Assembly: GCF_027924665.1 (NCBI RefSeq)
Contig: NZ_AP027043.1
Location: 4,464,001-4,528,000 of the forward strand
Length of the DNA stretch: 64,000 bases
Source of the DNA: Flavobacterium sp. GSB-24
Lineage (GTDB): Bacteria; Bacteroidota; Bacteroidia; Flavobacteriales; Flavobacteriaceae
Direction: 5' to 3'
In this document: piece by piece, positions 5,857 to 44,178 of the stretch
How positions within the stretch are numbered: position 1 is the stretch's first letter
Layout of the letters: the number at the start of each line of letters is the position of its first letter
Notes under the pieces: generated by a model
Told to the model about the DNA's origin: nothing
The model's input: the letters and a program-made list of their open reading frames with translations, nothing else
The model's database searches: none
Made by a program: the position numbers and the translations under genes

Positions 5857-7230
5857 TTATCTATTTTTACTTTTTAATTGATACAAAACAGAACTGTGCG
5901 GTTTTAAATCTGTTTCTATTTCTTTTGAAATTATTTTTGATTTTTCTCCTGTCCACATATTTAAAACCTCCACAGAACCTGAAATTCCAAGATCTGAAAG
6001 GTTTACAGTTACTTTTTTTGAAACTGTATCTGAGATATTAAACAAAGCCAGATAAATACTTCCATCTTTTGCATTTTTTGAAGTCACGGCAATCTTTCCC
6101 TCTTTCTGGAAAAGTTGTTTTACTGCTGTACTTTCGTTATGCATTTTCAAGACCTCATTATTTGTCAATAATGATATCGTAAAGGCATCGTTGCTAGGTA
6201 AGTCTCCCCCAAAGAACAATGGTGATTTAAAAATGTTGAAAAATGTAATCAACGTATATTGTTCGTCTTTTGTTAAACGCGTCATTCTTTCTTCGCCACG
6301 CTCTCCCCTAATCGAAATACGTCCTAACGGAATCATATCGCAGTCTGGCCATGTTCCCGGTGCAATGTATGGATACCATTTTTGTGCTACATCCATCAAA
6401 TGTGTGATATGCGGCCATGTGTCCCAAACATCATCCACCATACGCCACATATTGGCATGTTTAGTTACATGTGGTGCAGCAGAAATTGGTGTTTCTCCAG
6501 GTGAAGTGCTCAAAACTATTTTACGTCCGCAATTGTCGATTGCATTTCTTATTAAGTTGATTTCTCCTTCGTGATAAGGTCTTGATAAATCATCGATTTT
6601 AATGAAATCTACTCCCCATTGTGCATATAATTCGAAGATAGAATTATAATATTCCTGAGCTCCGGGTTTATCTGCCACAACAGTATAATTGTCTCTTAAC
6701 CATTCACATTGTAATGCTGTAGAATAAATCTGGTCTGCTGTGATTCCGTTGGTTCCTTTTACTGGGAGTTTATCTTCAACTGCTTTCTTCGGAATTCCAC
6801 GCATTATATGAATTCCGAATTTTAATCCTTTTTTATGGATATAATCGGCTAAAGGCTTAAAACCTTGTCCATCTTTCGCAGAAGGAAATCGATTAACGGC
6901 TGGAAGATATCTGCCGTACTGATCGATTACATATCGCGGGTTTGTCTGATTATAACCTCCTGCTTTATCATTTTCAACAAACCATCGAATATCAACAACA
7001 ATATATTCCCATCCAAATTTCTTGAGCTCTTTTGCCATGTAATCGGCATTGGCTTTTACTTCGTGTTCTTCAACTGTTGGGCCATAGCAATCCCAGCTGT
7101 TCCACCCCATTGGCGGTGTCTGAGCCCATTGCTTGAATTCTTCTTTTTGAAAGGTTTTATTTTGACAATTCGCTGAGATCGAATACATAATAATTACTAA
7201 TACCAACACAACTGTGTTTTTTATCTTCAT
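5857..7230 (-). CDS. GH27 glycosidase, probable beta-L-arabinopyranosidase or alpha-galactosidase
   Basis: Secreted retaining exo-glycosidase, 457 residues with signal peptide. The GH27 start TPPMGWNSWDCYG is at 38-50, the nucleophile D213 lies in FIKIDDLS, and the acid/base D267 lies in MWRMVDDVWDTW. A beta-sheet C-terminal domain follows. In alpha-galactosidases the sugar C6 hydroxyl is held by a DD pair after strand beta-2; here that site reads VVDIRW, D80-I81. As I recall, an Ile in place of the second Asp marks the Streptomyces GH27 beta-L-arabinopyranosidase. So removal of L-arabinopyranose is as likely as removal of alpha-galactose. It is the last gene of the long operon and sits 31 bases after the GH2 gene. 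Confidence 0.9.
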   Translation of the reverse strand: MKIKNTVVLVLVIIMYSISANCQNKTFQKEEFKQWAQTPPMGWNSWDCYGPTVEEHEVKANADYMAKELKKFGWEYIVVDIRWFVENDKAGGYNQTNPRYVIDQYGRYLPAVNRFPSAKDGQGFKPLADYIHKKGLKFGIHIMRGIPKKAVEDKLPVKGTNGITADQIYSTALQCEWLRDNYTVVADKPGAQEYYNSIFELYAQWGVDFIKIDDLSRPYHEGEINLIRNAIDNCGRKIVLSTSPGETPISAAPHVTKHANMWRMVDDVWDTWPHITHLMDVAQKWYPYIAPGTWPDCDMIPLGRISIRGERGEERMTRLTKDEQYTLITFFNIFKSPLFFGGDLPSNDAFTISLLTNNEVLKMHNESTAVKQLFQKEGKIAVTSKNAKDGSIYLALFNISDTVSKKVTVNLSDLGISGSVEVLNMWTGEKSKIISKEIETDLKPHSSVLYQLKSKNR

Positions 7231-7261
7231 CTTAATTTGAATTAATTTGAATACTATTTTT

Positions 7262-9682
7262 CTATTTAACGTTTATGGTTACTTCATCAGGTTTTAACCA
7301 CTGGCTCGTAAATTTAATTTTGATAGGTTGTACTTCTCCATTTGCCTGAATGTAAGCTGCAATGTGTCCATGAAAAACTCGCTGTACATTATCTGTGTAA
7401 TCTGTCATATCGCTGTTGTTTCCTGCTTCAAGTCCTAATAAAGTTCCGGGTCCGCTTATTGTACATGTCACTTCATTGTCTGAAAGCATAACTGGAAGAC
7501 CGTTTTGATCTTTAACCTGAACCATGATTTTAGCCACTCCTTTGTCTCTGCTGATGGTAATATCTTTATTGTCAATAACTAATTCAACTGGCTGGTTTGT
7601 TGTTTTAATTGCATAATGAGTTACTTCTTTATCGCTTTTATCTAAACCAACTACTTCTAATTTTCCTGAAACAAACGGAATATCCCAATATATTATTCCC
7701 GTTTTTTCATCGTACGATTTGGTATCGCCTACTACTTTTCCATTTAATTCTAAACGTGCTTTTACCGCATTGGTATAACAAACCACGCGAATTTTTTGTC
7801 CAGTTTCGTAATTCCAGATTGCCCAAGCATCTTTAGAAATATCTTTTTCATTTGTCAGCGGATACGTTCCTAAATAAGCCATTGGTTTATCTGACCACAA
7901 TGACTGGCGGAAATATCCTCTTGGTTTGATTACGCCCGCAAAATCAACTAAACCAGAATAAAATCCTCTCGAGGGCCATCTTCCAGATTCTCCTAGATAA
8001 TCAATTCCTGTCCAGAGAAACTGCCCGAAAATATGTTTGTTATTTTTTACAGCAAGCCAAGGCTCTATATTATGCGTATTTTCACTTCCATAAATCACTC
8101 TTCGAGGGTATTTTTTGTGATCTTCTAGATATTTACTTTCTGTATAATTGTATCCTGTAATATCTAAAGCACCTGGATATTCTGTTTCGTTAGACATTGC
8201 AACACCCGCCAAACCAGCCGTTGCAGGACGAGATTTGTCGTATTTTTTAACCGCTGCAACCAAGCGTTTGGCAATAGCCCCTAGTCGCATGGCATCTGGT
8301 GCATCTTTTTTGTAACCACCATACGCAGCCTGTCCAAAACCATTGGTTCCTTTATCTAAAACTGGATGCGAATACGGATCGTTTGGATAATCTACTTCAT
8401 TGCCAATACTCCACGCAAATACGGAAAGATGATTTCTATCACGACGGACAAAATCTTCTAAATCTCTTTCTGCCCAATTGGCAAAAATATCAAATGAACC
8501 TTCAAATCCTGGCGTTCCATAATTCCAGCCTTGTAACCATTTGCGTTTTGGAAATTCCCATTCGTCATAAGCTTCGTTTAAAACCAATAATCCTAATTCG
8601 TCACAAAGCTCATAAAAATCTGGTGCCTGCGGATTATGACTTGTACGAATCGCATTTACTCCAATTTCTTTCAGGGTTTTCAATCTGGTCTTCCAAACTT
8701 CTCTAGGAACGGCAGAACCTAGAACTCCAGCATCGTGGTGTAAACAAACGCCTTTCATTTTCATCCATTTTCCGTTTAGGGCAAAACCGTTATTAGGATC
8801 GAATGTAAAAGTTCTAAAACCTGTTTGTGTTACTGTTTTGTCAATTTCTTTTCCATTTTGTAAAACTGTAGTTTTGAGTTCGTATAAATTCGGATTATCT
8901 AAATCCCATAATTGTGGATTTTTTACGTTTATTTTAGCAGCTATTTTTCCTTTCTGATTTGCTGCAACTTCAACTTTAGAAGAAGATTTTGCTACTGATT
9001 TTCTATCCTGCGAAAAAAGTTCATTTATAATTGTAAGGCTAGTTTTTTCTTTTGAGCTATTTTCGACTTCAACCTCAACATTTAATATTCCATTTCCTTT
9101 TTTTACTTCTGGATAAGCGTAAACTCCCCATTGTGCAATATGTACTGGATTTGCATAAACTAACCAAACATTTCTATAAATTCCAGAACCGCTGTACCAT
9201 CTTGAATCAGCACTTTGACTGTGGTCTACACGAACAGAAATGATATTTTCACTACCATATTTTACAAATCCAGTAGCGTCATAAGCAAACGATATATAAC
9301 CATTTGGACGCTTTCCTAATGAATGTCCATTAATAAAAACTTCACTTCTATTGTAAACCCCTTCAAAATACAAATAGACTTTTTCGCCCGATTTACTTTG
9401 CGGAATAGTTATAGATTTTCTATACCAGGCAATTCCTCCTGGCAGATAACCTGTACAGCTTGCAAGAGTCGGACTCAGCTGTCCTTTTACGCTCCAGTCA
9501 TGCGGCACATTTACCTGCTGCCATTTACTGTCGTCAAATGAAACGTTTTTGGCATCAGAAATATCCTGAAGATTAAATTTCCAGTTGTCATTGATTTTGT
9601 TCGAATCTCCAAACGAAATCTGGCTGATTGCCGAAAAACAGGAGAAGAGAAATATGGGTAGTAAGATCTTATTTGTACACAT
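7262..9682 (-). CDS. GH2 beta-galactosidase-like glycosidase with DUF4982
   Basis: Secreted retaining exo-glycosidase of 806 residues with N-terminal signal sequence. It has the GH2 order: jelly-roll sugar-binding domain (SFDDSKWQQVNVPHDWSVKG), Ig-like domain, TIM barrel, then DUF4982 and a C-terminal Ig-like domain (VQVKDQNGLPVMLSDNEVTC). The acid/base is the glutamate in WSIGNEVD near residue 427, and the nucleophile is the glutamate in IYGSENTH near 533. The GALDITGYNY block preceding it is typical of the DUF4982 beta-galactosidase group. Beta-galactosidase is likely; beta-glucuronidase or alpha-L-arabinopyranosidase are possible. It lies 22 bases after GH95 in the operon. Confidence 0.92.
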   Translation of the reverse strand: MCTNKILLPIFLFSCFSAISQISFGDSNKINDNWKFNLQDISDAKNVSFDDSKWQQVNVPHDWSVKGQLSPTLASCTGYLPGGIAWYRKSITIPQSKSGEKVYLYFEGVYNRSEVFINGHSLGKRPNGYISFAYDATGFVKYGSENIISVRVDHSQSADSRWYSGSGIYRNVWLVYANPVHIAQWGVYAYPEVKKGNGILNVEVEVENSSKEKTSLTIINELFSQDRKSVAKSSSKVEVAANQKGKIAAKINVKNPQLWDLDNPNLYELKTTVLQNGKEIDKTVTQTGFRTFTFDPNNGFALNGKWMKMKGVCLHHDAGVLGSAVPREVWKTRLKTLKEIGVNAIRTSHNPQAPDFYELCDELGLLVLNEAYDEWEFPKRKWLQGWNYGTPGFEGSFDIFANWAERDLEDFVRRDRNHLSVFAWSIGNEVDYPNDPYSHPVLDKGTNGFGQAAYGGYKKDAPDAMRLGAIAKRLVAAVKKYDKSRPATAGLAGVAMSNETEYPGALDITGYNYTESKYLEDHKKYPRRVIYGSENTHNIEPWLAVKNNKHIFGQFLWTGIDYLGESGRWPSRGFYSGLVDFAGVIKPRGYFRQSLWSDKPMAYLGTYPLTNEKDISKDAWAIWNYETGQKIRVVCYTNAVKARLELNGKVVGDTKSYDEKTGIIYWDIPFVSGKLEVVGLDKSDKEVTHYAIKTTNQPVELVIDNKDITISRDKGVAKIMVQVKDQNGLPVMLSDNEVTCTISGPGTLLGLEAGNNSDMTDYTDNVQRVFHGHIAAYIQANGEVQPIKIKFTSQWLKPDEVTINVK

Positions 9683-9704: not shown

Positions 9705-12173
9705 TTAATTGACTGGTTTTATGGTATAAGATGTTCCCTTTTTAGTTTCAAATACTACGGTGTAACCAATAGACGATTTCTCGCTTTTGATATTAAGTTT
9801 TTCAATTACGAATGGTTCTCCTGCTCTTACAGCACAAATGCCTCCCTTATTAGATACAATTTTGGCCTGGCTCATTTTGCCATCATTCCATTTAATATCT
9901 ACAGTGAAATTACCTTTTGCTGTAATCCCCTTTATTGCTCCGTCTGTCCACGAATCTGGTAAAGCGGGAAGCAGATGTATTTCTTTGTTCTGGCTTTGCA
10001 TGAGCATTTCTATTACACCAGCTGTTCCTGCAAAATTCCCATCGATTTGAAAAGGCGGATGAGCATCAAAAAGATTTGGATAACACCCGCCATGTCGGCT
10101 ATACTCTGTATTGTTTTCTTTTGTTAATCTTAATTGGTTTTTAAATAATCTATAAGCGTGATTCCCATCTAAAAGTCTCGCCCACATATTTACTTTCCAT
10201 GCCAGACTCCAGCCCGTACCATCGTCGCCTCGCAATTCTAATGTTTTCTTTGCTGCCGCAGCCAATTCTGGTGTTTTTAGCGGCGCTATTAAATTTGCAG
10301 GATGTAAAGCATAAAGATGTGATGTATGCCTGTGATGCGGATCTTCTTCTTCAAAATCTTTATACCATTCTAAAAGTTGTCCTTTATTTCCAATTTGAAA
10401 AGGAAGTAATTGATCTGAAGCTTTGTTAACTTTTTGCCTGAATTCTAAATCGGTGCCTAGCACTTTAGACGCTTCTACAGTATTTTCAAATAAATCTTTT
10501 ATGATTCCGATATCCATGGTAGAAGCTGTCGTTACACTTCCTTGCTTTTTTCCATCATAAAAATATTTGTTCTCTGGCGATGTCGAAGGCATCGTTACCA
10601 GATAGCCGTCTTTGTTTTTTTGAAGCCAGTCTAAACTAAATTCTGCTGCTCCTTTTATAATTGGATATACTTTTTTCAAGTATTCTTTATCACCTGTATA
10701 TTCATAATGTTCCCATAAATGCCTGCTCAGCCAGTTGGCTCCCATATACCAGTTGGCCCACATAGGATCTCCTTTTCCAAAATCACCTACAGGATTGGTC
10801 ATTGCCCATATATCTGAATTATGATGCAGTACCCACCCATTGGCATGATAATAACTTTTGGCTGTTTCTGTTCCTGTTACCGAAACATTTTTAATGAACT
10901 CGTCAAGCGGAAAAAACAATTCAGACAAACTTCCCGATTCAACAGGCCAATAATTCATTTGCAAATTAATATTTGTCGTATAATTACTGCTCCAAGGTGC
11001 GCGAAGTTTGTTATTCCAGATTCCCTGAAGGTTGGCCGGCACATTGTGTGTACGCGAGCAAGAAATTAACAAATAACGCCCAAACTGAAAAAATAAAGCT
11101 TCAAGACCAGCATCTTTTTCGCCTTTTGCATATTGCTCTAATCTTGTATCAGTCGGCAGATTCGATTTATCGGTTTCTTTTTCATTAAGCTTTAAAGAAA
11201 CTCTATTAAAAAAATGCTGAAAATCTGCAACGTGATCTTTTAGTAAATTATCATATTTCTTTGTTACAGCTTTTTTAATTGGATTTTCTGCGAATTTATG
11301 TTCATCTTTTCCCTCGCTGTCTGGACATTTATCAAAGCCATTAAAACTGGTTGCTGCCGAAACGAAAAGTAGTATTTCAGATGCATTTTTAATTACTAAT
11401 TTATTTCCATCAGAATTCATTACACCGTCTTTTATTACGGGTTTAATAATCAATTCAAAACGCATTCCTCTACAGCCAAATGCATCTTCATAAACGATTG
11501 GTTCTTTGTTATAATCAATATAATTCGGATCTACATGCGAAGGCGCTTTGCCTTTTAAAACCACTGACTGATTTTGTACTGTTTTTTGATTTCTTAAAAG
11601 ACTTGAAGCATCAATTGTTACTGAAAGTTTCTTCAACTGATCTGCCGAAAGTTTAATTACAATGCATTGCGCTGGTGCAGAAGCAAATATTTCTCTTTTG
11701 TAATTTACACCGTTTATATTAAAACTGGTAGATGCTAATCCCGTTTGTAAATCCAAACTTCTATTATAAGATGCTGCTTTTTGTCCGTCAAAATCCTGTG
11801 TCAAAATAAGATCTCCCAAGGGCATAAAACTTTCGCTGTATGCCCCCTGCATGTTTTTAGTCAAAGCATAGGCTTTTTCAAAATCTTCATTCGTTAGTGC
11901 TTCTCTAATTAGAGCCAGATTCTTAAAAGCATCTGGATTTACATTTTTCTGCACAGGTCCGCCGCTCCACAAAGTTGCTTCGTTCAACTGAATTAATTCA
12001 GAATCTATTCTTCCAAAAACCATTGCACCGAGTGTTCCGTTTCCAATTGGCAGAGCTTCTGTCCATTCAACAGCGGGCTGATTGTATTGGAGTTTTAAAT
12101 CTTGGGCATAACCCACAAAACGCAACAAAAACAAAAGCAAAAAACTTTTTCTTAAAAGATTGTAAAGCATCAT
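9705..12173 (-). CDS. GH95 alpha-L-fucosidase / alpha-L-galactosidase
   Basis: Inverting exo-glycosidase, 822 residues, with signal peptide (MLYNLLRKSFLLLFLLRFVGYAQ). The family start is WTEALPIGNGTLGAMVFG and QLNEATLWSGGP. The catalytic layout known from bifidobacterial AfcA is present: an N-x-N pair in TTNINLQMNYW near residue 401, a glutamate in STSPENKY near 533, and an aspartate in FQIDGNFAGTAG near 709. Family members remove alpha-1,2-linked L-fucose or L-galactose from plant glycans. Located 14 bases after the GH51 gene, in one operon with arabinosidase, galactosidase and GH28 enzymes. Sequence alone does not separate fucose from L-galactose. Confidence 0.93.
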   Translation of the reverse strand: MMLYNLLRKSFLLLFLLRFVGYAQDLKLQYNQPAVEWTEALPIGNGTLGAMVFGRIDSELIQLNEATLWSGGPVQKNVNPDAFKNLALIREALTNEDFEKAYALTKNMQGAYSESFMPLGDLILTQDFDGQKAASYNRSLDLQTGLASTSFNINGVNYKREIFASAPAQCIVIKLSADQLKKLSVTIDASSLLRNQKTVQNQSVVLKGKAPSHVDPNYIDYNKEPIVYEDAFGCRGMRFELIIKPVIKDGVMNSDGNKLVIKNASEILLFVSAATSFNGFDKCPDSEGKDEHKFAENPIKKAVTKKYDNLLKDHVADFQHFFNRVSLKLNEKETDKSNLPTDTRLEQYAKGEKDAGLEALFFQFGRYLLISCSRTHNVPANLQGIWNNKLRAPWSSNYTTNINLQMNYWPVESGSLSELFFPLDEFIKNVSVTGTETAKSYYHANGWVLHHNSDIWAMTNPVGDFGKGDPMWANWYMGANWLSRHLWEHYEYTGDKEYLKKVYPIIKGAAEFSLDWLQKNKDGYLVTMPSTSPENKYFYDGKKQGSVTTASTMDIGIIKDLFENTVEASKVLGTDLEFRQKVNKASDQLLPFQIGNKGQLLEWYKDFEEEDPHHRHTSHLYALHPANLIAPLKTPELAAAAKKTLELRGDDGTGWSLAWKVNMWARLLDGNHAYRLFKNQLRLTKENNTEYSRHGGCYPNLFDAHPPFQIDGNFAGTAGVIEMLMQSQNKEIHLLPALPDSWTDGAIKGITAKGNFTVDIKWNDGKMSQAKIVSNKGGICAVRAGEPFVIEKLNIKSEKSSIGYTVVFETKKGTSYTIKPVN

Positions 12174-12187: not shown

Positions 12188-14167
12188 TTAAATAGTCTTC
12201 AGTTTTAAAACCGTTACCGAATACGCAGGAAGATTCAATTGCTGTTTCCCTTTTGCAATTTTATATTCGCCTGTTTTCGGACTTATTTTTTTCGGATCTG
12301 CAAACGTATTTTCATCCTGAACATTCGGACTTACAAGTGTAATCATACTTCCTTTTGAACCTAATTTTGCTCCTTTCAAATCAATCGAAACCTCTTGATT
12401 TGATGCCGATGTATTAACCAATTTTACGATTATTTCTTTTGTATTGGCATCTTTTACTGCAGATGCGTATAAATTGTTTTGCCCCGTTAATGGTTTATCG
12501 TCTTTAGTAATACTCAATAAATCTGTCCCTTTATTGGTTGAAAACAATTGCTGTACATAATAATTGGCGGAACCATAAGATTGTAGATTATTAAACCAAA
12601 TCATATCTGGAGTCCATTGCCAAGCATCTTCGTGAGCCATTAAAGGGGCATAAGATGTTAGATGAACTACTTCTGCATTTCTTTCCAGTCCGGTCATAAA
12701 AGCAGCTTCAGAAAAAGCACATTCCCAATTATTCCTGTTATTCGGATTGGCTCCTGAAACACTTTGAGCAGCATATTCTCCAGCAAATATTTTGGGGCCT
12801 TTTCTGTCATAATTATCATAACGCCCGGCATTTTCTCTAAACCATTGCGGACTTTTATAATAATGCTCATCTACAAGTTCTGCATTAAGTTTTTTAAGTT
12901 CTTCCATAGCAAAATCAAAATGTTCACCGTCTGGAGAAGGACCACTTCCAGATACAATAATGATGTTTGGGTATTTTGCTTTTATTGCTTTCTCAAAAAC
13001 TTTATATCTTTCAATATAATCGGGTCCCCATTGTTCGTTTCCAACTCCAATATATTTTAGATTAAATGGCTTTGGATGCCCCATATCCGAGCGGATTTTC
13101 CCCCAAGTAGTTGTGACAGCACCATTGGCAAATTCAATTAAATCTAAAGCATCCTGTACATAAGGGTCAAGTTCGTTTATTGGAGCCAATTCACCAGTAT
13201 TGTATTGACAAGCCATGCCGCAGCTTAAAATGGGAAGCGGTTCTGCACCAATATCTTCTGAAAGCTGAAAATATTCAAAAAATCCTAATCCAAAACTTTG
13301 AAAATAATCTGGAGTTTGTTTATGACTGAATTCTACATTCCAACGGTTCATCATCGTTTTTCTGTCTTCTACATTTCCAACTGATTTTTTCCATTGGTAA
13401 CGATCTGACAACGTTCTTCCTTCAACAATACAGCCTCCCGGAAAGCGTAAAAAACCAGGTTTCATATCATATAAAAGCTGCACCAAATCTTTACGAAGAC
13501 CATTTTTTCTGTTTTTCCAAGTATCCTCAGGAAACAATGAAATCATATCTAAATCTATTGTTCCTGTTCCTTCAAAAGTTATTTTCAATTTTGCTTTGGC
13601 TTCCGTTTGAAGTGCTGTTATTTGTGCGGTATAATTGGTCCATTTTTCAGATTTTGGATCGACACTGGTTTCTCCAATTACTTTTTGATCTTTATCAATA
13701 AGTTGAAATATAATCTTTTTGACACCTTGGTTATGATTTGCTGCTTTTAAAGAAAGGTTATATTTTGCATCCTTTTTCACTCCCATTCCTCTAAAACCTT
13801 CATTTATTAAAACATAACCTTTTGCATTATTAATTTCAACTCTGCAAAAAACAGTATTATCTGCCTCAATTTTTATTGGCGCTGCGCTACCCGATTCTTT
13901 ATTTAATGAAGATCTTTTTGTATTGGGCTGTTCCCATCCCATTAAAGGTTTTTCAAATTCAAAAGATCTGTTTTTAATCATTTCGGCATATAGCCCTCCA
14001 TCTGCAGCAAAATTGATATCTTCAAAAAATAACCCGAACATGGTTGGCTGGATTTTAGTAATGGTTTTAGAGGCATCTACTTCTAAAGTTACTTTTTGAG
14101 CACTTATATAAAAACTGCTTAAAAGAATACCACAAATAGTAAATTTTGTAAGGATCTTATTTTTCAT
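12188..14167 (-). CDS. GH51 alpha-L-arabinofuranosidase
   Basis: Retaining exo-arabinofuranosidase of 659 residues with signal peptide. After the family start (IQPTMFGLFFEDINFAADGGLYAEMIKNRSFE) comes a carbohydrate-binding-like beta-sandwich insert (about residues 90-215). The barrel follows with FLRFPGGCIVEG, the acid/base glutamate in YIGVGNEQWGP near 377 and the nucleophile in FAGEYAAQS near 461. The all-beta C-terminal domain ends in NLPAYSVTVLKLK. It should release L-arabinofuranose from arabinan, arabinogalactan or arabinosylated side chains. It is 19 bases downstream of the GH28 gene and followed by GH95. Confidence 0.95.
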   Translation of the reverse strand: MKNKILTKFTICGILLSSFYISAQKVTLEVDASKTITKIQPTMFGLFFEDINFAADGGLYAEMIKNRSFEFEKPLMGWEQPNTKRSSLNKESGSAAPIKIEADNTVFCRVEINNAKGYVLINEGFRGMGVKKDAKYNLSLKAANHNQGVKKIIFQLIDKDQKVIGETSVDPKSEKWTNYTAQITALQTEAKAKLKITFEGTGTIDLDMISLFPEDTWKNRKNGLRKDLVQLLYDMKPGFLRFPGGCIVEGRTLSDRYQWKKSVGNVEDRKTMMNRWNVEFSHKQTPDYFQSFGLGFFEYFQLSEDIGAEPLPILSCGMACQYNTGELAPINELDPYVQDALDLIEFANGAVTTTWGKIRSDMGHPKPFNLKYIGVGNEQWGPDYIERYKVFEKAIKAKYPNIIIVSGSGPSPDGEHFDFAMEELKKLNAELVDEHYYKSPQWFRENAGRYDNYDRKGPKIFAGEYAAQSVSGANPNNRNNWECAFSEAAFMTGLERNAEVVHLTSYAPLMAHEDAWQWTPDMIWFNNLQSYGSANYYVQQLFSTNKGTDLLSITKDDKPLTGQNNLYASAVKDANTKEIIVKLVNTSASNQEVSIDLKGAKLGSKGSMITLVSPNVQDENTFADPKKISPKTGEYKIAKGKQQLNLPAYSVTVLKLKTI

Positions 14168-14186: not shown

Positions 14187-15626
14187 TTATTTTTTTACTG
14201 CCTCTAATTTAGCTGGAAAAGCTGCTTCTCCGTCTAAATTTGTTACGATTAATTGATCTACGTTTTTACTTTCTACTGCATGTTTAAAATATTCTGGTTT
14301 ATTTTTCCCCCATTGTACTGTACAATTCTGAACTTTAATACGTTCAGCAGCATCAAAATAAAATCCCGAAGTACTTCCTTTTACAAAACCTTCAACATTA
14401 GAAGGCCTTCTATCGTATACTCCACCTGGAAAAGATGTTGTCTTATCTATAAAAATACTCACATTGTCAAAAACAATATTCTTTATTTTATCTTTTGATT
14501 CGCCGCTCACAAACACACCATTTTCTCCTGTACATTGAATATTAGAGAAATAGATGTTTTTTATTTCACCCACTTTTCCTTCTGTTGCACCTTTTGGAAA
14601 ACGCCAATTGGCATCTTTATGATTTCCTTTTGCCCTGCTAAAAGCCGTTACATAAATGGGTTCTGCTTTTCCCCACCAAGTATCTGTGGTCAACTTACTT
14701 TCGATAATGATATTTGAGAAAATGACATCGCTCACTGTTCCTTCATCTCTGTTCTGAATTCCTAATGCTCGATTGCTGTTTTTAATGATGCAATTATTGA
14801 ACACTACTTGTCTGATTGCATCCATGTTTTCTGATCCAATTTTGATCGCACAGCTGCTGCTGGTCATTGTACAATTAGTCACTGTAATATTTTCGCAGGC
14901 GCCAAATTCTTCAAATTCCCTTCTGTTTTTTAAACAAATGCAATCATCACCGCTTTCGATATAACAATCGCTGATTCTTACGTTTTTAGAATGATCCAAA
15001 TCGATACCATCGCTATTGCGTACTTTTAAACTGTTCAATAAAGTAATCCCGCTTATTACAACATCGTTACAACCTACTAAATGTATGGTCCAATAAGCTG
15101 AATTTCCGATATGAACATCTTTGATTCTGATATTTTTTCCTCCAATAATGGTTAACACATGCGGTCTTGGATCCAGTACATTAAATGGTTTTAAAACATA
15201 CGAATCTTCTAATTCCTCGCCCATGAAAGAAATTCCGTTTCCATCAATTTTGCCGCTTCCGCTAATGGTAAAATCCTCAACATTTTCTCCTCCAATCCAT
15301 ATTGTACCTTCTCCTGGATTGGTCCTAAAAGCGCTTTTTGTATATAACTTTTCATCTGGACTAGCCAATAATTTTGCTCCTGCTTCGATATGAAGATCTA
15401 CTTTTGATTTAACATCAATTGGTCCAGCTAAAAATGTAAATGGTGCCGGAATTAAAACTCTTCCTCCAGTTTTACTGCAGGCATCAATTGCTTTTTGAAT
15501 GGCTGCTGCATCATTGGTTTTACCATCTCCTTTTGCTCCGTACTTTTTAACGTCATAAACATTCTGTGCCGAGACTGTTAAAGACAGACAAAAAATCAGG
15601 ATCGCAATTATAGATTTCTTTTTCAT
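14187..15626 (-). CDS. GH28 family glycosidase lacking the GHG histidine (1)
   Basis: Right-handed beta-helix glycosidase, 479 residues, signal peptide. The family start is DVKKYGAKGDGKTNDAAAIQKAID. The catalytic acids are in NSDGIDLDHS near 204 and SGDDCICLK near 224. The next canonical motif, GHG in polygalacturonases, is replaced by TSSSCAIKIGSE. GH28 members with this change include enzymes that are not simple polygalacturonases, so rhamnogalacturonan, xylogalacturonan or another uronic acid linkage is possible. An exported enzyme acting in the periplasm is expected. It is separated from the previous GH28 gene by 102 bases, the only sizeable gap in this part of the operon. Confidence 0.9.
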   Translation of the reverse strand: MKKKSIIAILIFCLSLTVSAQNVYDVKKYGAKGDGKTNDAAAIQKAIDACSKTGGRVLIPAPFTFLAGPIDVKSKVDLHIEAGAKLLASPDEKLYTKSAFRTNPGEGTIWIGGENVEDFTISGSGKIDGNGISFMGEELEDSYVLKPFNVLDPRPHVLTIIGGKNIRIKDVHIGNSAYWTIHLVGCNDVVISGITLLNSLKVRNSDGIDLDHSKNVRISDCYIESGDDCICLKNRREFEEFGACENITVTNCTMTSSSCAIKIGSENMDAIRQVVFNNCIIKNSNRALGIQNRDEGTVSDVIFSNIIIESKLTTDTWWGKAEPIYVTAFSRAKGNHKDANWRFPKGATEGKVGEIKNIYFSNIQCTGENGVFVSGESKDKIKNIVFDNVSIFIDKTTSFPGGVYDRRPSNVEGFVKGSTSGFYFDAAERIKVQNCTVQWGKNKPEYFKHAVESKNVDQLIVTNLDGEAAFPAKLEAVKK

Positions 15627-20256: not shown

Positions 20257-23423
<3,167 letters not shown>

Positions 23424-28691: not shown

Positions 28692-28719
28692 CAAAATTAT
28701 TTAACAGATAAATTATCAA
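28692..28719 (-). promoter_or_regulatory. consensus promoter for the HTCS gene
   Basis: Minus strand TTG (28719-28717), 17-base spacer, TAATTTTG (28699-28692). It overlaps the end of the metallophosphoesterase gene and lies about 48 bases before the regulator start, so the regulator can be expressed apart from the rest. Confidence 0.65.
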
Positions 28720-37084: not shown

Positions 37085-38698
37085 TTAATATCCATCGTTC
37101 TGAATCAGGGCTGGATTTAAGACCATCGCGTTGGTTGGAATTGGGAAAACACGACGATAAACATCTGTATTGGTTTTGTATCCCCATTGCCCTTCATATT
37201 TTCCAAAACGGATCATATCATTTCTATGCCAAGCTTCCCAAGCAAATTCACGGCTTCTTTCTTTGTAAAGCTCTTCTAAAGTTACACCGCTCAAGGCTGC
37301 AGATGTTGTACGGTTAGAGCGAACCATATTTATTAATGCATCTGCACTTTGTCCTAAAGTTACTGCTCCACCTCGAAGAATTGACTCTGCTTTCATTAAA
37401 AGAACATCTGAGTAACGCAAGAAAGGAACGTCGTTCTTTTGGTTACGATTTGTTGATGTTGCATCTGGATAAAATTTAATATTTCTATACCCCATATTCC
37501 AAGCAATTTCATCGTTTCCAAGATCGAATAAGGCTACACTTTGACGAAGAATAATATCTGGTGTTAAATTTACCTGATACGTGTAAGTTGCACCGCCATC
37601 AGATCCTGTATAAAATTGATCATATCCTTTTTTGGTTGTAGTAACCATTACTGGTGTAACTCCATCATTCATATACTGGAGACCCGTAAGCCACTGTTTG
37701 TTACGAATGTCATTTGCATCATTGAAATAAGCATAAAATTCTGGCAGCGTACTTCTTGGTGCACTTGGTGTATAAGGAAGACCAAACTTAGTTCTTTCAG
37801 AACGTGGTACATCATAACGAGCGTGATACATTTGTCCGTTATAACCAACTGTAACGGCTGCTGGATCATAAGGTACTGCAAAAATGAACTCTTTCATTTG
37901 TGGTCCGTTTGCTGGATAAAACATTTGCAAATACGTCGCTCTTGGTTCAACAGCATATAAATTAGAGTTAATTACCTCATCACAAGCTGCAATACATTCA
38001 TTGTAACGTTGTGTCCCTGTATAAACTTCAGCATTTAAATACAATTTAGCAAGCATTGCATTAGCGGTCTGTTTATTTGGTCTACCATAGGTTGTAATTC
38101 CTGCTGCTGGATTTAGATTGGGAACTGCATTTTTTAATTCACTCTCAATAAAATTGAAAACCTCTTTTCTTGGTGTTTTAGCATGAGATGTAAAATCTCC
38201 ATATAAGGTATCCAAAGGTACATCTCCATAACTGTCCATTAACATGAAATACGAAATAGCACGCATAGTTTTTAACTCTGAAATCAAAGTTTTTTTCTCT
38301 GCACCCTCCGGCATTGTTTGTCTTAAAATAGAAATTGCCTGATTACTTGTTCCTATCACTTTAGAAGACCAATCCCAAAGACTTCCGATAATACCATTAT
38401 CAGCATTCCAATCATGATAATGCATCGAAATATAGTTTCTATTATCGAACCAGTTACCTCCTCTTGACGGCAAAATAGCTTCATCTGTAGATAAAGATTG
38501 AGACCACCACCAGGCAAATGAAAATTCACCGCGGAAAGCTGCATAAACAGGTCCAGTAGTTTGAATATATTGTGTTGAGTTTTGAGGAAATACTTCAGGT
38601 GTTAATTGTGTTGTAATAGGCACTTCTAGATCGTCACAAGACCATATTAAACCAGCTATAAGTACTGGAAGTCCTAAATATTTTAATATCTTTTTCAT
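37085..38698 (-). CDS. SusD/RagB outer membrane glycan-binding lipoprotein
   Basis: Surface lipoprotein that captures the glycan and caps its SusC partner. 537 residues from the ATG at 38698, chosen because a TAAAAA ribosome-site-like sequence precedes it; another ATG lies 12 bases upstream at 38710. Lipidation cysteine in AGLIWSCDD. SusD features are the TPR-like helices (ISYFMLMDSYGDVPL, AMLAKLYLNAEVYTG) and the C-terminal FLRYSDVLLMKAESI and YKERSREFAWEAWHRNDMIRFGKY. It lies 19 bases after SusC and ends in a terminator. Confidence 0.96.
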   Translation of the reverse strand: MKKILKYLGLPVLIAGLIWSCDDLEVPITTQLTPEVFPQNSTQYIQTTGPVYAAFRGEFSFAWWWSQSLSTDEAILPSRGGNWFDNRNYISMHYHDWNADNGIIGSLWDWSSKVIGTSNQAISILRQTMPEGAEKKTLISELKTMRAISYFMLMDSYGDVPLDTLYGDFTSHAKTPRKEVFNFIESELKNAVPNLNPAAGITTYGRPNKQTANAMLAKLYLNAEVYTGTQRYNECIAACDEVINSNLYAVEPRATYLQMFYPANGPQMKEFIFAVPYDPAAVTVGYNGQMYHARYDVPRSERTKFGLPYTPSAPRSTLPEFYAYFNDANDIRNKQWLTGLQYMNDGVTPVMVTTTKKGYDQFYTGSDGGATYTYQVNLTPDIILRQSVALFDLGNDEIAWNMGYRNIKFYPDATSTNRNQKNDVPFLRYSDVLLMKAESILRGGAVTLGQSADALINMVRSNRTTSAALSGVTLEELYKERSREFAWEAWHRNDMIRFGKYEGQWGYKTNTDVYRRVFPIPTNAMVLNPALIQNDGY

Positions 38699-38717
38699 AA
38701 TTTTTAGCATTTAATTT

Positions 38718-41700
38718 TTAGAAGATCACATTTAAACCAAACATATAAGTTCTGGTTTTTGGATAGAAATTATTTGAATCTACACCAGGAGCTGTTCCTC
38801 CTTGTTCTACTTCCGGATCAATTCCTGTATATTTGGTAATAACAAATACGTTATTTATTGTTTGGTAAATACGTACGCTTTGTATGTATTTGCCCACCTT
38901 ACCAAAATTATATCCTAAAGTCATGTTGTCTAATCTTACGTAACTGCCGTCTTCTATAAAACGGTCTGAATACTTGTAAGAGTTTAAGTCATTTGGTGAT
39001 TCATTTCCTGCATCAACTAAAATATTATTGGTCATTGCGGTGCTTGGCCTGAATAAATCGGCACGAGTTGCATTGAAAATTTTATTACCAAATACTCCTC
39101 TGAAGAAAATACTTAAATCAAATTTTTTGTATTGAAAATTATTTGCCCATCCTACCAATAATTTTGGTTGTGCGCTTCCTGCATAATGATAATCTACTCC
39201 AATTTGAGGTGTAGTAGTTAAATCACCATTTTTATCATAGTATTGTGAAACTCCTGCAGCATTTTTTCCTGCATATTTCAATGTAAAGAATTGTCCTAAA
39301 GGTTTTCCTTCTTTAAAGATTTGTAATGTACTTCCTGTTTGTCCCCCACCGTCTGGCTGCACACGACGAATGGAATCACCTCCAACAAAGAATGGACTGG
39401 TTAATTTTACGATTTCATTCTTATTATGTGACAAATTCAGATTAGTTGTCCAGCTGAAATTTGCTGTTTTAACTGGAGTTGTGCTTAAACTAACCTCAAT
39501 ACCTTTATTAGACATTGTACCACCGTTTGCTACAATTGTCCCTACTGGCACAAGTACAGGATTAACATTATAATTGAAAATCATGTCTGTTGTTTTTTTA
39601 TTATATAAATCAACAGAACCTGTAACTTTTCCTTTTAAGATAGCGAAGTCAACTCCAATATTTGAAGTAGCTGTTTTTTCCCATTTCAAATCTGGGTTAG
39701 CGGCTTGGTTAGGCCCGTAAGCTCCAATTTGTTGTCCGTTATAATAGAAAGTTCCTAAACTTCCAGAAATAAATTGAGCTGTGTAAGCATTAAATCCAGA
39801 AGAGTTTCCAGTTACCCCCCAGCTTCCGCGGATTTTCAAATCACTAAAAAAGCTTTGATTCTGCATAAAACTTTCTTTGTCTAATCTCCAAGCACCACCG
39901 ACAGAAGGAAAATATCCCCACTGGTTATTTGCTCCAAACATAGAGCCTCCATCTCTTCTAAGAGATCCTTGTAAAAGATATTTATCTTTATAGTTATAAT
40001 TTAAACGTCCAAAATATGAGATCAAACGTGTTTTTTGATATGCTTTACTATCTCCAAAATTTACTACATACCCATTAACAGAAGTGTAATTACTTAAAGC
40101 AAGGTTATTATATCCAACATTGTCTACAGGAAAGTTTGTTGTTGTAGCTTGAAAACCATCACCTAAAGTGTTTTCTTGCCAAGAATACCCTAAAACCGCT
40201 TTTATTTTGTGCTCTCCTATTGACTTGTCCCAAGTAAAGAAGCTCTCAATAATATTGTTTCTTGTTTCATAAGAATTTCTCAATGCAGAACCATTTACAC
40301 CAAAATTTACTAAAGATTTTGTCAAAGGAGGATCTGGATTGTTGTAGAAGTTGGCACTATTGTATTGTGAATAATAACTGTCATAAAATTCTCCATGAGA
40401 TGCAGTTAATCTTTGATGTGCTAAATTCAAATTATAAGTAATTCCAAATGGTAATTTTACTTCTGCAGTAAGATTCCCAACAAGGTTATCCGTTTTAGTT
40501 TCGTCAGTGCCATGCTCGATTAAAGCTACAGGGTTGAAATATCCGGGGCTGACAAAATTTTCAAAATAACTTCCATCAGCATTTCTTACTGGCGAAACAG
40601 GAAGATAACTTGCTGCTTGTAAAAGAACAGTATTACGCTGTGGTACATTTTGATATTTGGTACTAGAATTAGTAACATTCAGACCAAATTTAACCTTATC
40701 ATCAAAAGCAAATTGTTCGACTGACAAACGAGCAATGATACGAGAAAAATCACTTTTCAACATTACTCCTTCTTTGTTAAGAGAAGTAATACTTGCGGTA
40801 TAGTTTCCATGATCGCCTCCGCCGCTCATAGACAAGTTATGACTGCTTGATGCCGCACGTCCTGCTCTTAAAATTTCTTTCTGCCAGTTAGTGTTAGCGC
40901 CTTTATCATTTTCTGGAGTAAAATTCAAATTGTTTTTAGTTGTAAAAGCTCTCAGCTGATCTGCATTCATCATGTCCAGATTATTTGAAACTTCTTCCCA
41001 GCCCACATAACCATTGTATGCAATTTGCGTTCTGCCCTTACTTCCTTTTTTTGTGGTTACCATGATAACACCATTTGCCGCACGGTTACCGTAGATTGCT
41101 GTTGCGGCAGCATCTTTTAAAACGTCAATTGTTGCAATGTCATCTGGAGCAATTACAGAAATATCGACTCCTGGAATTCCATCTATTACATAAAATGGTC
41201 CTTGAGAACTATTTAATGTTGATGCTCCACGCAAAACTACAGATGCTGTCTTAGTTGGGTCACCACTAGAGGAAATGTTCAAACCAGAAACTTTACCCTG
41301 CAAAAGCTGTCCCACGTCACTGATTGCTCCTCGGTTTAAATCTTCGGCTTTTACAGAAGTTACAGAAGTAGTAAGGTTTTTTCGAGATCCTTTTCCGTAA
41401 CCTACAACTACTACTTGTTCTAAGTTAGTTGTTGTTGACTGTAATTTAACCGTATAATTTGATTTTGTCCCGTCTAATTTTACCGGTTGATCATCAAATC
41501 CCATAAAGGAAAATATAAGTGTCGCATTTTTGTTTGAAGCTGAAATTTTAAATTTCCCATCAAAATCTGTTGTTACTGTATTCGTTGTACCTTTCTCTAG
41601 TACATTGGCGGCTGGCAGTGGAATGCCTTTGTCATCTAAAACTACACCGGACACTTCTGTTTTTTGTGCCCAGGTATTAATTGAGAAGCCAAAGCAAAGG

Positions 41701-41729
41701 GCTAATAATAAAAGTTTAAGTTTTTCCAT
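38718..41729 (-). CDS. SusC/RagA TonB-dependent outer membrane transporter
   Basis: TonB-dependent importer for the PUL oligosaccharide, 1003 residues. It has a signal peptide, a CarboxypepD_reg-like domain (TEVSGVVLDDKGIPLPAANV to about residue 100), a TonB-box-like stretch with VVVGYG near 110-115, the plug domain (LQGKVSGLNIS..., FYVIDGIPG, IYGNRAANGVIMVTTKKG), and a 22-strand barrel ending FYPKTRTYMFGLNVIF. This barrel end and the FxPxxR plug are typical of SusC. It pairs with SusD 19 bases downstream. Genes upstream and downstream give the degradative enzymes. Confidence 0.97.
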   Translation of the reverse strand: MEKLKLLLLALCFGFSINTWAQKTEVSGVVLDDKGIPLPAANVLEKGTTNTVTTDFDGKFKISASNKNATLIFSFMGFDDQPVKLDGTKSNYTVKLQSTTTNLEQVVVVGYGKGSRKNLTTSVTSVKAEDLNRGAISDVGQLLQGKVSGLNISSSGDPTKTASVVLRGASTLNSSQGPFYVIDGIPGVDISVIAPDDIATIDVLKDAAATAIYGNRAANGVIMVTTKKGSKGRTQIAYNGYVGWEEVSNNLDMMNADQLRAFTTKNNLNFTPENDKGANTNWQKEILRAGRAASSSHNLSMSGGGDHGNYTASITSLNKEGVMLKSDFSRIIARLSVEQFAFDDKVKFGLNVTNSSTKYQNVPQRNTVLLQAASYLPVSPVRNADGSYFENFVSPGYFNPVALIEHGTDETKTDNLVGNLTAEVKLPFGITYNLNLAHQRLTASHGEFYDSYYSQYNSANFYNNPDPPLTKSLVNFGVNGSALRNSYETRNNIIESFFTWDKSIGEHKIKAVLGYSWQENTLGDGFQATTTNFPVDNVGYNNLALSNYTSVNGYVVNFGDSKAYQKTRLISYFGRLNYNYKDKYLLQGSLRRDGGSMFGANNQWGYFPSVGGAWRLDKESFMQNQSFFSDLKIRGSWGVTGNSSGFNAYTAQFISGSLGTFYYNGQQIGAYGPNQAANPDLKWEKTATSNIGVDFAILKGKVTGSVDLYNKKTTDMIFNYNVNPVLVPVGTIVANGGTMSNKGIEVSLSTTPVKTANFSWTTNLNLSHNKNEIVKLTSPFFVGGDSIRRVQPDGGGQTGSTLQIFKEGKPLGQFFTLKYAGKNAAGVSQYYDKNGDLTTTPQIGVDYHYAGSAQPKLLVGWANNFQYKKFDLSIFFRGVFGNKIFNATRADLFRPSTAMTNNILVDAGNESPNDLNSYKYSDRFIEDGSYVRLDNMTLGYNFGKVGKYIQSVRIYQTINNVFVITKYTGIDPEVEQGGTAPGVDSNNFYPKTRTYMFGLNVIF

Positions 41730-41852
41730 TGTGATATTGGTTAATTGGTTAAATAGTACTGACGAAATTAGTGCTAATGAAATGTTAAGAAATGGACAAG
41801 TTATTCATAAACATGGATAATTTCTATAAAGTCAGTGATAGTAAGGCTTGCC

Positions 41853-41860: not shown

Positions 41861-42006
41861 TTTTCTAAAATTCTATAGTTAAAAACTTACTAATAAATCG
41901 TTTTCGCGAAGATTCAGTTCCTGTTTTTCATTGTTGTTTTGGTTTTGGTTACGAAGTATTGGTTATTTTTTATGTATCTACGAATTAATCGCAATTAAGT
42001 ATTATT

Positions 42007-44178
42007 TTAATTACTTTCAGTCCATTTAATTTCCCAATTTTTGATTAATTCTCTTTCATTAGATTCATCAAATTGAGTATTGTTTACAACTGATTTTCTA
42101 AAGGCTTCTAAAAACATTTTCCATCTCGGCCAATAGAATCCTTTGTACATTCCCTGCCATGATCGGGAAGCATAATCATTCAAATGACCTTCTCCACCCC
42201 AAAGCGTAATTAGTGTTTTTGCATTTTTTACATATAATTTTGAAACCTCTGCTGAACTTCCGTAATCAGAAGCCGATTTTACCCATTGATCTAAACTATT
42301 TAATGGCTGCCCAGACATCATTTTATCAATCTCCAAAGCTTGTTTTTCTATTTTTTTAAAAAGCTGGTCTCCTTTGATAACATCTTTCTGCTGATACGCT
42401 TTTACACATTTCATTAAATCCTCATCAATACACAATGAATAATAATGTCTTGAAATATCAATTAAATCGTAGTTAATGAAATTCTTTTTATCATACTTTG
42501 CAGCTTCTTTGTGAAGGATATCCAAAGCTTCTTTTAATTTTTCCTTATCTCCAGGATTTCCTTTAAATTCTGTAATTGTGGCCGTTGGGCGTTTAAATAA
42601 CAAATACGCTCCAGCCCTATCATTCCACCAGCGAGTTTCCCAGTATTTCACATTATAAACAGATTCTAGTAATAGTTCCCAAGCTTGAAAAATAGATTGA
42701 GTATGTTTTTGTCCATATCTCGCATGTAAATATTTAGTCAGCCAGTCATTAAGAGGCTGCTCTCCTTTAGTCCACGCAAGATCATATATGTATTCATAAA
42801 CAATTGAATTATTATTTAAGCCTTCGGGCATTGCCCCATAACCCACAATATTTCCTCTATTTGGATTCTGCAGCAAACTTGTCAATTCATTTTTATAGAA
42901 ATTTAAATCTCCATATACAGGATTTGATCCTCCATAATTATGGACATAACCATAAGTCCATTGTTTACCATAAAAAGCTTCTTGATTTTCCCATACCTTA
43001 TACCTGTCATTGGCATAATCCTGAACCATCAATCTGTCATTTGGAACTTTGCTTAAAAATGCGCTGGTTGCCTCTTTTGTCCAAAACTCTTTATTGTCTC
43101 CAAAAAGCCATCCCTGCATTACCCATACTGCACCAGGAGCTGCTTCATTAATAGTTTCGTAAATTGCACTTCCGTAATTAGAAAGTTCTTCGTATTTATT
43201 ATTCTCAGAAACAGGAGGTTCAATTTCATTAAAAGAATCTGCTAAGTAGAAATTAGATGCGCCATACTTTTGGGTATAAATTTCAATAAAACGTTTTCCT
43301 ATTTTTTTAAACAATGGATCTTTGGAATCTAATAGAAAAGTGCTTGCAAAGCCGCCTCCCGACCAAGATTTTAATTCTGTTATTTTAGCCTCAGTATGTT
43401 TTTCGGCAAAAGCTTTAGGCACATAACCACTAAAAGCAGGAACAACAGGATGCATGTCTAAGGCTCTCATCCTTTCCAATATTTTCTTTTGCAGCTCTTC
43501 TTTTTTACTAAACCATTCTTTTGGCAATGGTCCTTCTAGACTATTAATATTCCCCATTCGCTGCCATGGCAGATAGGCTGGCCCTGCAAAATGGGCTTCT
43601 AACTGATTGCTGGTCAAGCCATACTCTTTCCATAGTTCCTGCCATACTGCTTCCTGACCTTCCATTGCGGTAGGAAGATTTATTCCGTGCATCGCCATCC
43701 AGTCTATTTCTTGTTCCCATCGTTTCCAATCCCACCATGGTGTCGTATAACCAAAAGTACAGGCATTTAAATATTCTCTATATTGAAATGGTGTCTCACT
43801 CTTTTTAGAATATTTTGGCCATGTCTCGGGTAAATGAATTCTATTTCCTTCCCAGCTGACTAAAACTGCACCTATATCCCTAAGAAAATTATAAGCAGCA
43901 TAGCAGACAGCAGTATTATTTGATGCTTTTATTTTTACTTTATTGTTTGTTGTTTCAATTTCAAACCAATCTAATTTATTCCCTTTGTTTTCAATAATGC
44001 TTAATTCGAACTCGCTGGCACGATTACCTATAAGTCTTTCAATTACCTTTTGGGCACTTTCTATTTTTTCTTCATTTTTACAGTATACTTTCACTACACA
44101 AAAAAACAGCAGCATAAAAAATGGTACAATTCTTTTTAAAGAACCGTGCTTTTTATTTAGAAAATTCTCTTTTTTCAT
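42007..44178 (-). CDS. GH89 alpha-N-acetylglucosaminidase (NAGLU-like)
   Basis: Exported exo-enzyme, 723 residues, that removes terminal alpha-linked GlcNAc. I take the ATG at 44178 (a GTG lies three codons upstream). A signal-like helix (FFMLLFFCVVKVYC) is followed by the N-terminal domain, then the GH89 barrel beginning FQYREYLNACTFGYTTPWWDWKRWEQEIDWMAMHG. The two catalytic glutamates of human NAGLU have counterparts in DSFNEIEPP (near 319) and GAMPEGLNNNSIVYE (near 449), at nearly the same distances. In humans this enzyme follows HGSNAT in heparan breakdown; an HGSNAT-like gene lies in the same PUL. It is the first PUL gene, 277 bases upstream of SusC. Confidence 0.95.
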   Translation of the reverse strand: MKKENFLNKKHGSLKRIVPFFMLLFFCVVKVYCKNEEKIESAQKVIERLIGNRASEFELSIIENKGNKLDWFEIETTNNKVKIKASNNTAVCYAAYNFLRDIGAVLVSWEGNRIHLPETWPKYSKKSETPFQYREYLNACTFGYTTPWWDWKRWEQEIDWMAMHGINLPTAMEGQEAVWQELWKEYGLTSNQLEAHFAGPAYLPWQRMGNINSLEGPLPKEWFSKKEELQKKILERMRALDMHPVVPAFSGYVPKAFAEKHTEAKITELKSWSGGGFASTFLLDSKDPLFKKIGKRFIEIYTQKYGASNFYLADSFNEIEPPVSENNKYEELSNYGSAIYETINEAAPGAVWVMQGWLFGDNKEFWTKEATSAFLSKVPNDRLMVQDYANDRYKVWENQEAFYGKQWTYGYVHNYGGSNPVYGDLNFYKNELTSLLQNPNRGNIVGYGAMPEGLNNNSIVYEYIYDLAWTKGEQPLNDWLTKYLHARYGQKHTQSIFQAWELLLESVYNVKYWETRWWNDRAGAYLLFKRPTATITEFKGNPGDKEKLKEALDILHKEAAKYDKKNFINYDLIDISRHYYSLCIDEDLMKCVKAYQQKDVIKGDQLFKKIEKQALEIDKMMSGQPLNSLDQWVKSASDYGSSAEVSKLYVKNAKTLITLWGGEGHLNDYASRSWQGMYKGFYWPRWKMFLEAFRKSVVNNTQFDESNERELIKNWEIKWTESN

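Follow-up and report, generated by a model that had tools for sequence, protein, structure and literature searches.

A Flavobacterium polysaccharide utilization locus that probably targets plant glycosyl inositol phosphorylceramide headgroups

The stretch of DNA analysed here, referred to as the window, is a 64-kb segment of the 5.35-Mb genome of Flavobacterium sp. GSB-24, a root-type soil bacterium. Nineteen minus-strand genes between positions 5857 and 44187 make up one polysaccharide utilization locus (PUL), with the features that define such loci: a SusC/SusD pair, carbohydrate-active enzymes (CAZymes) encoded on the same strand and a regulator. Families were assigned by Pfam and NCBIfam profile searches, and key enzymes were compared with PDB sequences. 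The genes for removal of glucosamine (GlcN), N-acetylglucosamine (GlcNAc) and mannose (Man) are all found in this PUL. The alpha-N-acetylglucosaminidase of glycoside hydrolase (GH) family 89 (42007..44187; Pfam PF05089, 2.5e-127) resembles human NAGLU (4xwh, 2.3e-120), and the FNE and PEG motifs of the two proteins align in register. Its open reading frame (ORF) opens with a GTG at 44187, and the first ATG, at 44178, is likely the start; the initial annotation had ended the locus at this ATG. Two GH92 alpha-mannosidases are present, GH92a (32127..34403; Pfam 4.6e-144) and GH92b (34424..36736; Pfam 1.6e-133). The HGSNAT/NagX-like transmembrane glucosamine N-acetyltransferase, called NagX here (19016..20158), falls under the Pfam DUF5009 cut-off (21.6 versus 25 bits) and fails the NCBIfam NagX equivalog cut-off (339.8 versus 480 bits). 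Human HGSNAT is its sole PDB sequence match (8vkj, 6.8e-15), and it retains the His of the H-x-x-WNG stretch, which we take to be the catalytic residue of HGSNAT/NagX. Judged from its sequence, the acetyltransferase would convert terminal GlcN to GlcNAc for GH89.

A second group of genes includes the myo-inositol oxygenase MIOX (23445..24323; Pfam PF05153, 2.5e-111; mouse MIOX 2huo, 1e-86), an enzyme that converts inositol to D-glucuronate. Its iron ligands (four His and two Asp, presumably with the same roles as in mouse MIOX) are retained in 67 of 67 sequences. A signal peptide is not seen in MIOX, so inositol must get into the cytoplasm. The Na+/solute symporter of the SSF family (17321..18958; Pfam), which is nearest to vSGLT (2xq2, E 2.8e-149), may import sugar or inositol. 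The lipoprotein metallophosphoesterase (MPE; 28697..30526; Pfam PF00149, 3.4e-9) has a lipoprotein-type signal at its N-terminus, and all 35 aligned homologues share its Cys17. Its nearest fold is that of Lmo2642, a match that does not settle the substrate, and MPE is predicted to release inositol phosphate. A hybrid two-component regulator (HTCS; 24610..28644; Pfam) is encoded between MIOX and MPE. The SusD-like glycan-binding protein (37085..38710; Pfam 1.1e-17) and the SusC-like TonB-dependent transporter (38718..41729; Pfam) lie next to GH89. A DUF4861 protein (30541..31392; Pfam 1.3e-38) and a secreted-looking protein of 192 amino acids without a Pfam or NCBIfam match (31547..32125) separate MPE from the mannosidases.

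The remaining genes encode further glycosidases. These are a GH27 enzyme of the alpha-galactosidase/beta-L-arabinopyranosidase type (5857..7230; Pfam Melibiase_2, 4.3e-22), a GalA/GalB-like GH2 enzyme, GH2a (7262..9682; Pfam GH2 domains; NCBIfam GalA 565.9, under the cut-off of 900), a GH95 alpha-L-fucosidase/galactosidase (9705..12173; Pfam 3.7e-179), a GH51 alpha-L-arabinofuranosidase (12188..14167; Pfam ASD1_dom, 1.7e-66) and a LacZ-type GH2 enzyme, GH2b (20262..23402; Pfam). Two GH28 proteins are also encoded: GH28a (14187..15626; Pfam 5.8e-31), whose nearest NCBIfam model is PglB (261.2, under the cut-off of 600), and the rhamnogalacturonidase-like GH28b (15729..17291; Pfam 1e-18; NCBIfam BT4146 263.6, under the cut-off of 500). 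Every family named in the initial annotation was recovered by Pfam or NCBIfam, the acetyltransferase by way of its match to human HGSNAT. Its statement that sulfatases and polysaccharide lyases are absent also stood: the profile searches gave no sulfatase among the 19 PUL ORFs and 11 scanned flanking ORFs, and no polysaccharide lyase family among the 19 PUL ORFs. Pectin lyase, GH105, GH78, unsaturated uronyl hydrolase and rhamnosidase were likewise not found among these 19 ORFs.

Glycosyl inositol phosphorylceramides (GIPCs) are abundant plant membrane lipids. The plant GIPC core is GlcNAc(a1-4)GlcA(a1-2)myo-Ins-1-P-Cer, where GlcA is glucuronic acid, Ins inositol, P phosphate and Cer ceramide (PMC6151786). 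Each bond of this core has a candidate enzyme, by family membership, in the locus or in its relatives. The reading that we favor, and consider probable, is that the window carries a PUL for plant GIPC headgroups, most likely imported as inositol (phospho)glycans. Free inositol phosphate glycans are reported from wall extracts of uninfected Arabidopsis and accumulate on Botrytis infection; some of them bear hexose, pentose and deoxyhexose branches (PMC11496612), which suit GH2/GH27, GH51 and GH95, respectively.

The substrates, the order of the steps and the role of GH28 in the following scheme are predicted from the genes, their order, their conservation and their family membership. GH51, GH27, GH95 and GH2 would trim the outer pentoses, galactose and deoxyhexose. 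NagX would acetylate terminal GlcN and GH89 would then take off GlcNAc, while GH92 would take mannose off Man-type headgroups. A uronidase would free glucuronate from inositol, namely GH115 in deeper-branching loci and GH28a in the lineage of the window. A phospholipase would split off ceramide; this may be a phosphatidylinositol-specific phospholipase C (PI-PLC) in deeper-branching loci, and for the window its place may be taken by a PI-PLC encoded some 300 kb from the locus, or by a prior attack of plant or fungal phospholipases. The MPE lipoprotein would free inositol from phosphate, the SSF carrier would import a product, and MIOX would turn inositol into D-glucuronate that feeds the uronate pathway. 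PI-PLC works via a 1,2-cyclic intermediate and needs a free O-2 on inositol. This mechanism would require that GlcA is removed first, which fits an order of GH115 followed by PI-PLC.

The conservation of the gene set was examined with MPE as an anchor. One genome from each of 84,980 species was searched, which gave 124 candidate stretches of which 111 were confirmed, and the best 80 of the 111 confirmed MPE matches, with up to 10 kb on each side, are the 80 loci discussed here. HTCS directly follows MPE in 77 of the 80 and MIOX lies no more than four genes after MPE in 66; contig ends cut two (L007 and L026) of the 14 loci without MIOX. The retention of gene order in relatives indicates that the cluster is not due to chance. 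The initial annotation had raised the absence of the inositol oxygenase and the phosphoesterase from homologous PULs as evidence that would speak against a GIPC substrate, and the two are instead together in those 66 loci. The 192-amino-acid protein occurs in 54 of the 80. The nearest named relative is Flavobacterium sp. Root935, with an MPE that is 99% identical. MIOX itself is found in 38 of 299 Flavobacterium genomes, as a single match in each, and in 30 short Flavobacterium loci its neighbors include GH2b (30/30) and HTCS (28/30).

Eighteen related PULs, picked by us from the 38 MIOX-bearing Flavobacterium genomes, were compared over about 20 kb on each side at an identity of at least 55%, and these counts can miss genes close to the ends of the stretches. 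GH92a and GH28b are present in all 18, SusD in 17 and SusC in 15. MPE, HTCS, GH92b, the 192-amino-acid protein, GH2b, NagX, SSF and GH28a are each present in 16, and MPE reaches 17 of the 18 MIOX-anchored regions once more of one genome (G051) is read. DUF4861 and GH51 occur in 13, U598 (a group of proteins of 597-618 amino acids) in 11 and GH95 in eight. GH89 is found in seven, with two more PULs carrying a second GH89 type. GH27 (three of 18) and GH2a (two of 18) are accessory genes.

An ordinary pectin (rhamnogalacturonan I) or arabinogalactan PUL, in which MIOX, the phosphoesterase and GH89 are passengers, has to be weighed against these counts. The two GH28 enzymes, GH51, GH95, GH27 and GH2 of the window all suit such a role, GH28b is nearest to a rhamnogalacturonidase, and GH28b, GH28a and GH51 are frequent in the related PULs (18, 16 and 13 of 18). 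A mixed pectic role is conceivable, above all in one genome outside Flavobacterium, G573, where GH106, GH39, GH97 and GH29 lie beside MIOX. However, GH92, MPE, HTCS, MIOX, NagX and SSF are equally conserved (16-18 of 18) while GH95, GH27 and GH2a are accessory, and the window PUL lacks pectin lyase, GH105 and GH78. A pectin or arabinogalactan substrate also leaves MPE, MIOX, NagX and GH92 unexplained, and we regard it as unlikely.

Candidates for the GlcA and ceramide bonds were found in the homologous loci, where genes were grouped by BLAST and Pfam was run on representatives. PI-PLC (PF16670) is present in 26 of the 80 loci, as a separate protein in 20 and fused behind an esterase-like domain in six. 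GH115 is present in 25 loci, full-length in 21 and short and divergent in four, and the two occur together in 20. The GH115 protein of L044 matches BtGH115A (9.1e-180) and xylan alpha-1,2-glucuronidases. The initial annotation had listed an alpha-glucuronidase and a ceramide-side enzyme as missing; homologous loci supply candidates for both, and the gap persists in the window PUL. A near-minimal locus in Maribacter ulvicola, L060, has the order SusC-SusD-GH115-GH92-PI-PLC-MPE-HTCS-MIOX-SSF and would supply one enzyme per bond of Man-GlcA-Ins-P-Cer, together with uptake and inositol oxidation. The fullest locus, of about 40 kb, is in the single-contig Flavobacterium chromosome G051. It contains SSF and MIOX, then SusC/SusD, GH92, U598, DUF4861, GH28b, GH92a, GH43, GH89 and NagX, and continues with PI-PLC, GH115, MPE, HTCS, an MFS carrier, KduI, an SDR protein and UxaC.

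Catabolic genes are also found in some loci. KduI (457.3 versus a cut-off of 250) and UxaC (602.5 versus 387) are encoded in L073. In L118/L119 (apparently F. flevense, equivalent to L078) a NagB-type glucosamine-6-phosphate deaminase (1060.7 versus 384 bits) and a D-mannonate oxidoreductase (351.5 versus 281 bits) follow MIOX-SSF. These genes indicate that GlcN and glucuronate catabolism travels with part of the family. The genome of the window has two UxaC genes, both outside the PUL. The NagB-type deaminase (L119:1662-3590) has a long C-terminal extension and ties amino-sugar catabolism to the locus. The esterase-like/PI-PLC fusions are 612-618 amino acids long (L049:7984-9837 and five other loci), and in four further loci an esterase-like protein adjoins a separate PI-PLC. 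The esterase-like part may remove acyl or acetyl groups from the lipid or glycan ahead of cleavage.

The chemistry of these enzymes overlaps with that needed for the glycosylphosphatidylinositol (GPI) anchors of plant arabinogalactan proteins (AGPs), with the AGP or pectic glycan attached. For such a target GH92 would act on the Man chain, NagX and GH89 on GlcN, PI-PLC and MPE on the phospholipid and MIOX on inositol; NagX, GH89, GH92, MPE and MIOX would serve GlcN-Ins-P and Man chains just as well, and the AGP-type enzymes GH51, GH2, GH27, GH95 and GH28 would be explained. In addition, inositol O-2 is free in GPI, where GlcN is on O-6 (PMC6151786), whereas in GIPC it is free only after GlcA removal. 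However, the GPI core is without alpha-GlcA, yet GH115 is in 25 of the 80 loci and some loci bear KduI, UxaC and mannonate oxidoreductase. Every GPI has GlcN, yet 14 of the 20 loci with both PI-PLC and GH115 show neither NagX nor GH89 within 10 kb, and GH92 is present in 10 of these 14. GPI anchors are an improbable target, about as improbable as pectin or arabinogalactan.

The same enzymes bear on fungal GIPCs and actinobacterial phosphatidylinositol mannosides as substrates. The core of phosphatidylinositol mannosides is not known to contain GlcA. Fungal GIPC cores of Man-Ins and GlcN-Ins would suit GH92, NagX/GH89, PI-PLC, MPE and MIOX, but the fungal core also has no GlcA (PMC6151786), whereas GH115, UxaC and KduI in the relatives imply GlcA. 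We give these substrates very little probability.

The absence of PI-PLC and GH115 from the window PUL appears to be a derived state. A quick MPE tree (82 rows, SH-aLRT support only, some long-branch rows) placed the window with 50 loci in a derived Flavobacterium clade (branch support 98), in which PI-PLC is found in two of the 50 loci and GH115 in none. Among the 30 loci outside this clade PI-PLC is found in 24, GH115 in 25 and MIOX in 18, all within 10 kb. A 50-residue PI-PLC fragment (L126:10493-10642), 86% identical to the PI-PLC of L043, lies between DUF4861 and GH29 in the PUL of G293; L043 (genome G204) has an intact PI-PLC before its GH29. We infer that the ancestor had PI-PLC and GH115 and that both were lost in the lineage of the window, which would make the locus in the window a derived one that lacks PI-PLC and GH115 genes. 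The sole PI-PLC gene of the window genome belongs to L114, at a distance of 318 kb from MIOX, and its neighbors there are a SusC/SusD pair and a paralogue of MPE (50% identical). It could work in trans; alternatively, the window PUL may use inositol phosphate glycans that have already been released.

GH28a is a candidate for the missing uronidase. In a comparison of 31 genomes (E 1e-60), GH28a was found in none of the 24 genomes with a GH115 PUL and in seven of the seven derived-clade controls. This pattern is suggestive of a gene replacement, in which GH28a may stand in for GH115 at the GlcA-inositol bond. The initial annotation had proposed either GH28 or DUF4861 in this role, and the exclusion pattern points to GH28a, with an exception (G614) given below. 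An alpha-glucuronosyl-(1-2)-inositol hydrolase activity is not known for GH28 enzymes. U598, found in 25 of the 80 loci (L008:7050-8846 and 24 others), is a second candidate at glucuronate. The member scanned was matched by neither Pfam nor any PDB sequence, and its structural model, of fair quality, is closest to glycosaminoglycan lyases; U598 may be a new family of lyases linked to these PULs. A wider proposal is that a Bacteroidota PUL lineage is dedicated to GIPCs, that GH28a replaced GH115 as the alpha-glucuronosyl-(1-2)-inositol hydrolase in a terrestrial branch and that U598 provides a second, eliminative route at glucuronate. This proposal is tentative, and we hold it to be somewhat less probable than its negation.

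Outside Flavobacterium the set is more variable. Among 395 genomes from the class, MIOX turned up in 37. All 17 non-Flavobacterium MIOX proteins at 64-73% identity were read with about 20 kb on each side (two stretches are cut by contig ends), and eight of them sit in PULs with GH92 (seven) or with NagX and GH89 (four: G637, G377, G471 and G410). GH28a at 53-69% identity is found in G637, G377, G471, G573, G406 and G614. In G637, G377 and G471 (the L200, L213 and L197 group), which belong to another family, SusC and SusD are 53-56% identical to those of the window, so these PULs are its relatives and not independent inventions. A metallophosphoesterase of 326-356 amino acids is encoded between SusD and NagX in all three (3/3 scanned; Pfam 3.5e-17, 1.6e-18 and 2.2e-17). 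It has no BLAST match at E 1e-10 to the window MPE and looks like a different enzyme in the same role. G637 and G471 have MIOX, SusC/SusD, the metallophosphoesterase, NagX, GH89, GH92, SSF and GH28, and no other glycosidase was recognised among the scanned ORFs (a few small or flanking ORFs excepted); these compact PULs also argue against a pectin or arabinogalactan substrate. Additional families are GH39, GH97, GH106 and GH29 in G573 and GH43 and GH97 in G377. In G410, MIOX adjoins a gene for mannonate dehydratase. Two of the more distant MIOX genes, those of G654 and G685, adjoin an SSF gene of another type.

Several observations weigh against a GIPC substrate. PI-PLC, GH115 and the lyase-like U598 leave no trace in the window PUL. 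Pectin and AGP commonly call for GH28, GH51 and GH95; GH28a and GH28b look like polygalacturonases and rhamnogalacturonidases and are part of the conserved set (in 16 and 18 of the 18 PULs). The exclusion of GH28a and GH115 tracks clades and may reflect few events, and a single stretch of G614, a genome from another family, contains both a GH28a-like gene (53%) and a divergent GH115. The GH115 of L060 is also divergent (57.6 bits). Nine of the 17 non-Flavobacterium MIOX genes have no GH92, NagX or GH89 nearby, and four of these adjoin SSF, so MIOX alone is not diagnostic of the substrate. PI-PLC with MPE is also present in a phosphate-starvation locus (PMC8115612; compare L114). The GIPC headgroup proposal of the initial annotation is strengthened by PI-PLC, GH115 and the glucuronate and GlcN-6-phosphate catabolic genes of homologous PULs, and weakened by the lack of PI-PLC and GH115 in the window PUL, by GH28, GH51 and GH95 enzymes that suit pectin or AGP and by the overlap with GPI chemistry.

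The phosphate-starvation locus raises the question of whether the genes serve phosphate or inositol scavenging (from phosphatidylinositol, phytate or free cyclitols such as galactinol), with unrelated glycosidases. The PusI locus of F. johnsoniae pairs PI-PLC with a related phosphodiesterase under phosphate starvation (PMC8115612), and the window genome has a PusI-like locus, L114. MIOX without these glycosidases exists, beside SSF in four of nine cases, with one such gene (in G571) adjoining another SusC/SusD pair, and GH27 could act on galactinol. However, MPE and MIOX remain within PULs with GH92 and HTCS, GH27 is in just three of 18 PULs, and MIOX destroys inositol as carbon. Scavenging is a quite improbable explanation of the locus.

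The proposed GIPC PUL shares features with several known systems. Like other Bacteroidota HTCS/SusCD PULs it has a SusC/SusD pair, surface and periplasmic glycosidases and one hybrid regulator on one strand, but it joins phosphoester release and cytoplasmic inositol oxidation to glycan trimming, and the proposed substrate is a sphingolipid headgroup. PusI (Fjoh_4168-4173) has a SusC/SusD-like pair, PI-PLC and a CpdA-like phosphodiesterase, and L114 (G000:C1:4159000-4178900) has PI-PLC, SusC/SusD and an MPE that is 50% identical to that of the window. The published description of PusI mentions no CAZymes, and the system responds to phosphate starvation (PMC8115612), whereas the window PUL lacks PI-PLC. 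A Botrytis GIPC-phospholipase C, BCIN07g04350, frees inositol phosphate glycans from plant GIPC (PMC11496612), which is the pool proposed for the window PUL. It is annotated as a fungal sphingomyelinase, whereas the bacterial loci have a Ca2+-dependent PI-PLC (PF16670). In lysosomal heparan sulfate breakdown, HGSNAT acetylates terminal alpha-GlcN and NAGLU (GH89) then removes alpha-GlcNAc. The window has the same two-step pair, and the GlcN(Ac)(a1-4)GlcA unit is also in plant GIPC; however, sulfatases and heparinases are lacking in the locus, and what comes after the uronate is an inositol in place of a polysaccharide.

How GIPCs are digested has yet to be clarified, according to a review (PMC8268314). 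No bacterial GIPC locus was found in the top-ranked titles and abstract openings of open PMC full text, a search that leaves most subscription papers and bioRxiv outside. If the GIPC reading is true, root-associated Bacteroidota would draw carbon, nitrogen and phosphate from headgroups of the plant plasma membrane, the locus would provide a set of enzymes specific to the headgroups with which GIPCs could be analysed, and GH28a and U598 would be candidates for two new enzyme activities.

Variation was also seen around the regulator. In L025 (16248-19913), L028, L032 and L037 a protein of 1214-1223 amino acids is encoded between HTCS and MIOX, and that of L025 is weakly DUF2339-like, below the cut-off. 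In L017 and L056 HTCS is split into two ORFs, which may reflect a frameshift or a pseudogene.

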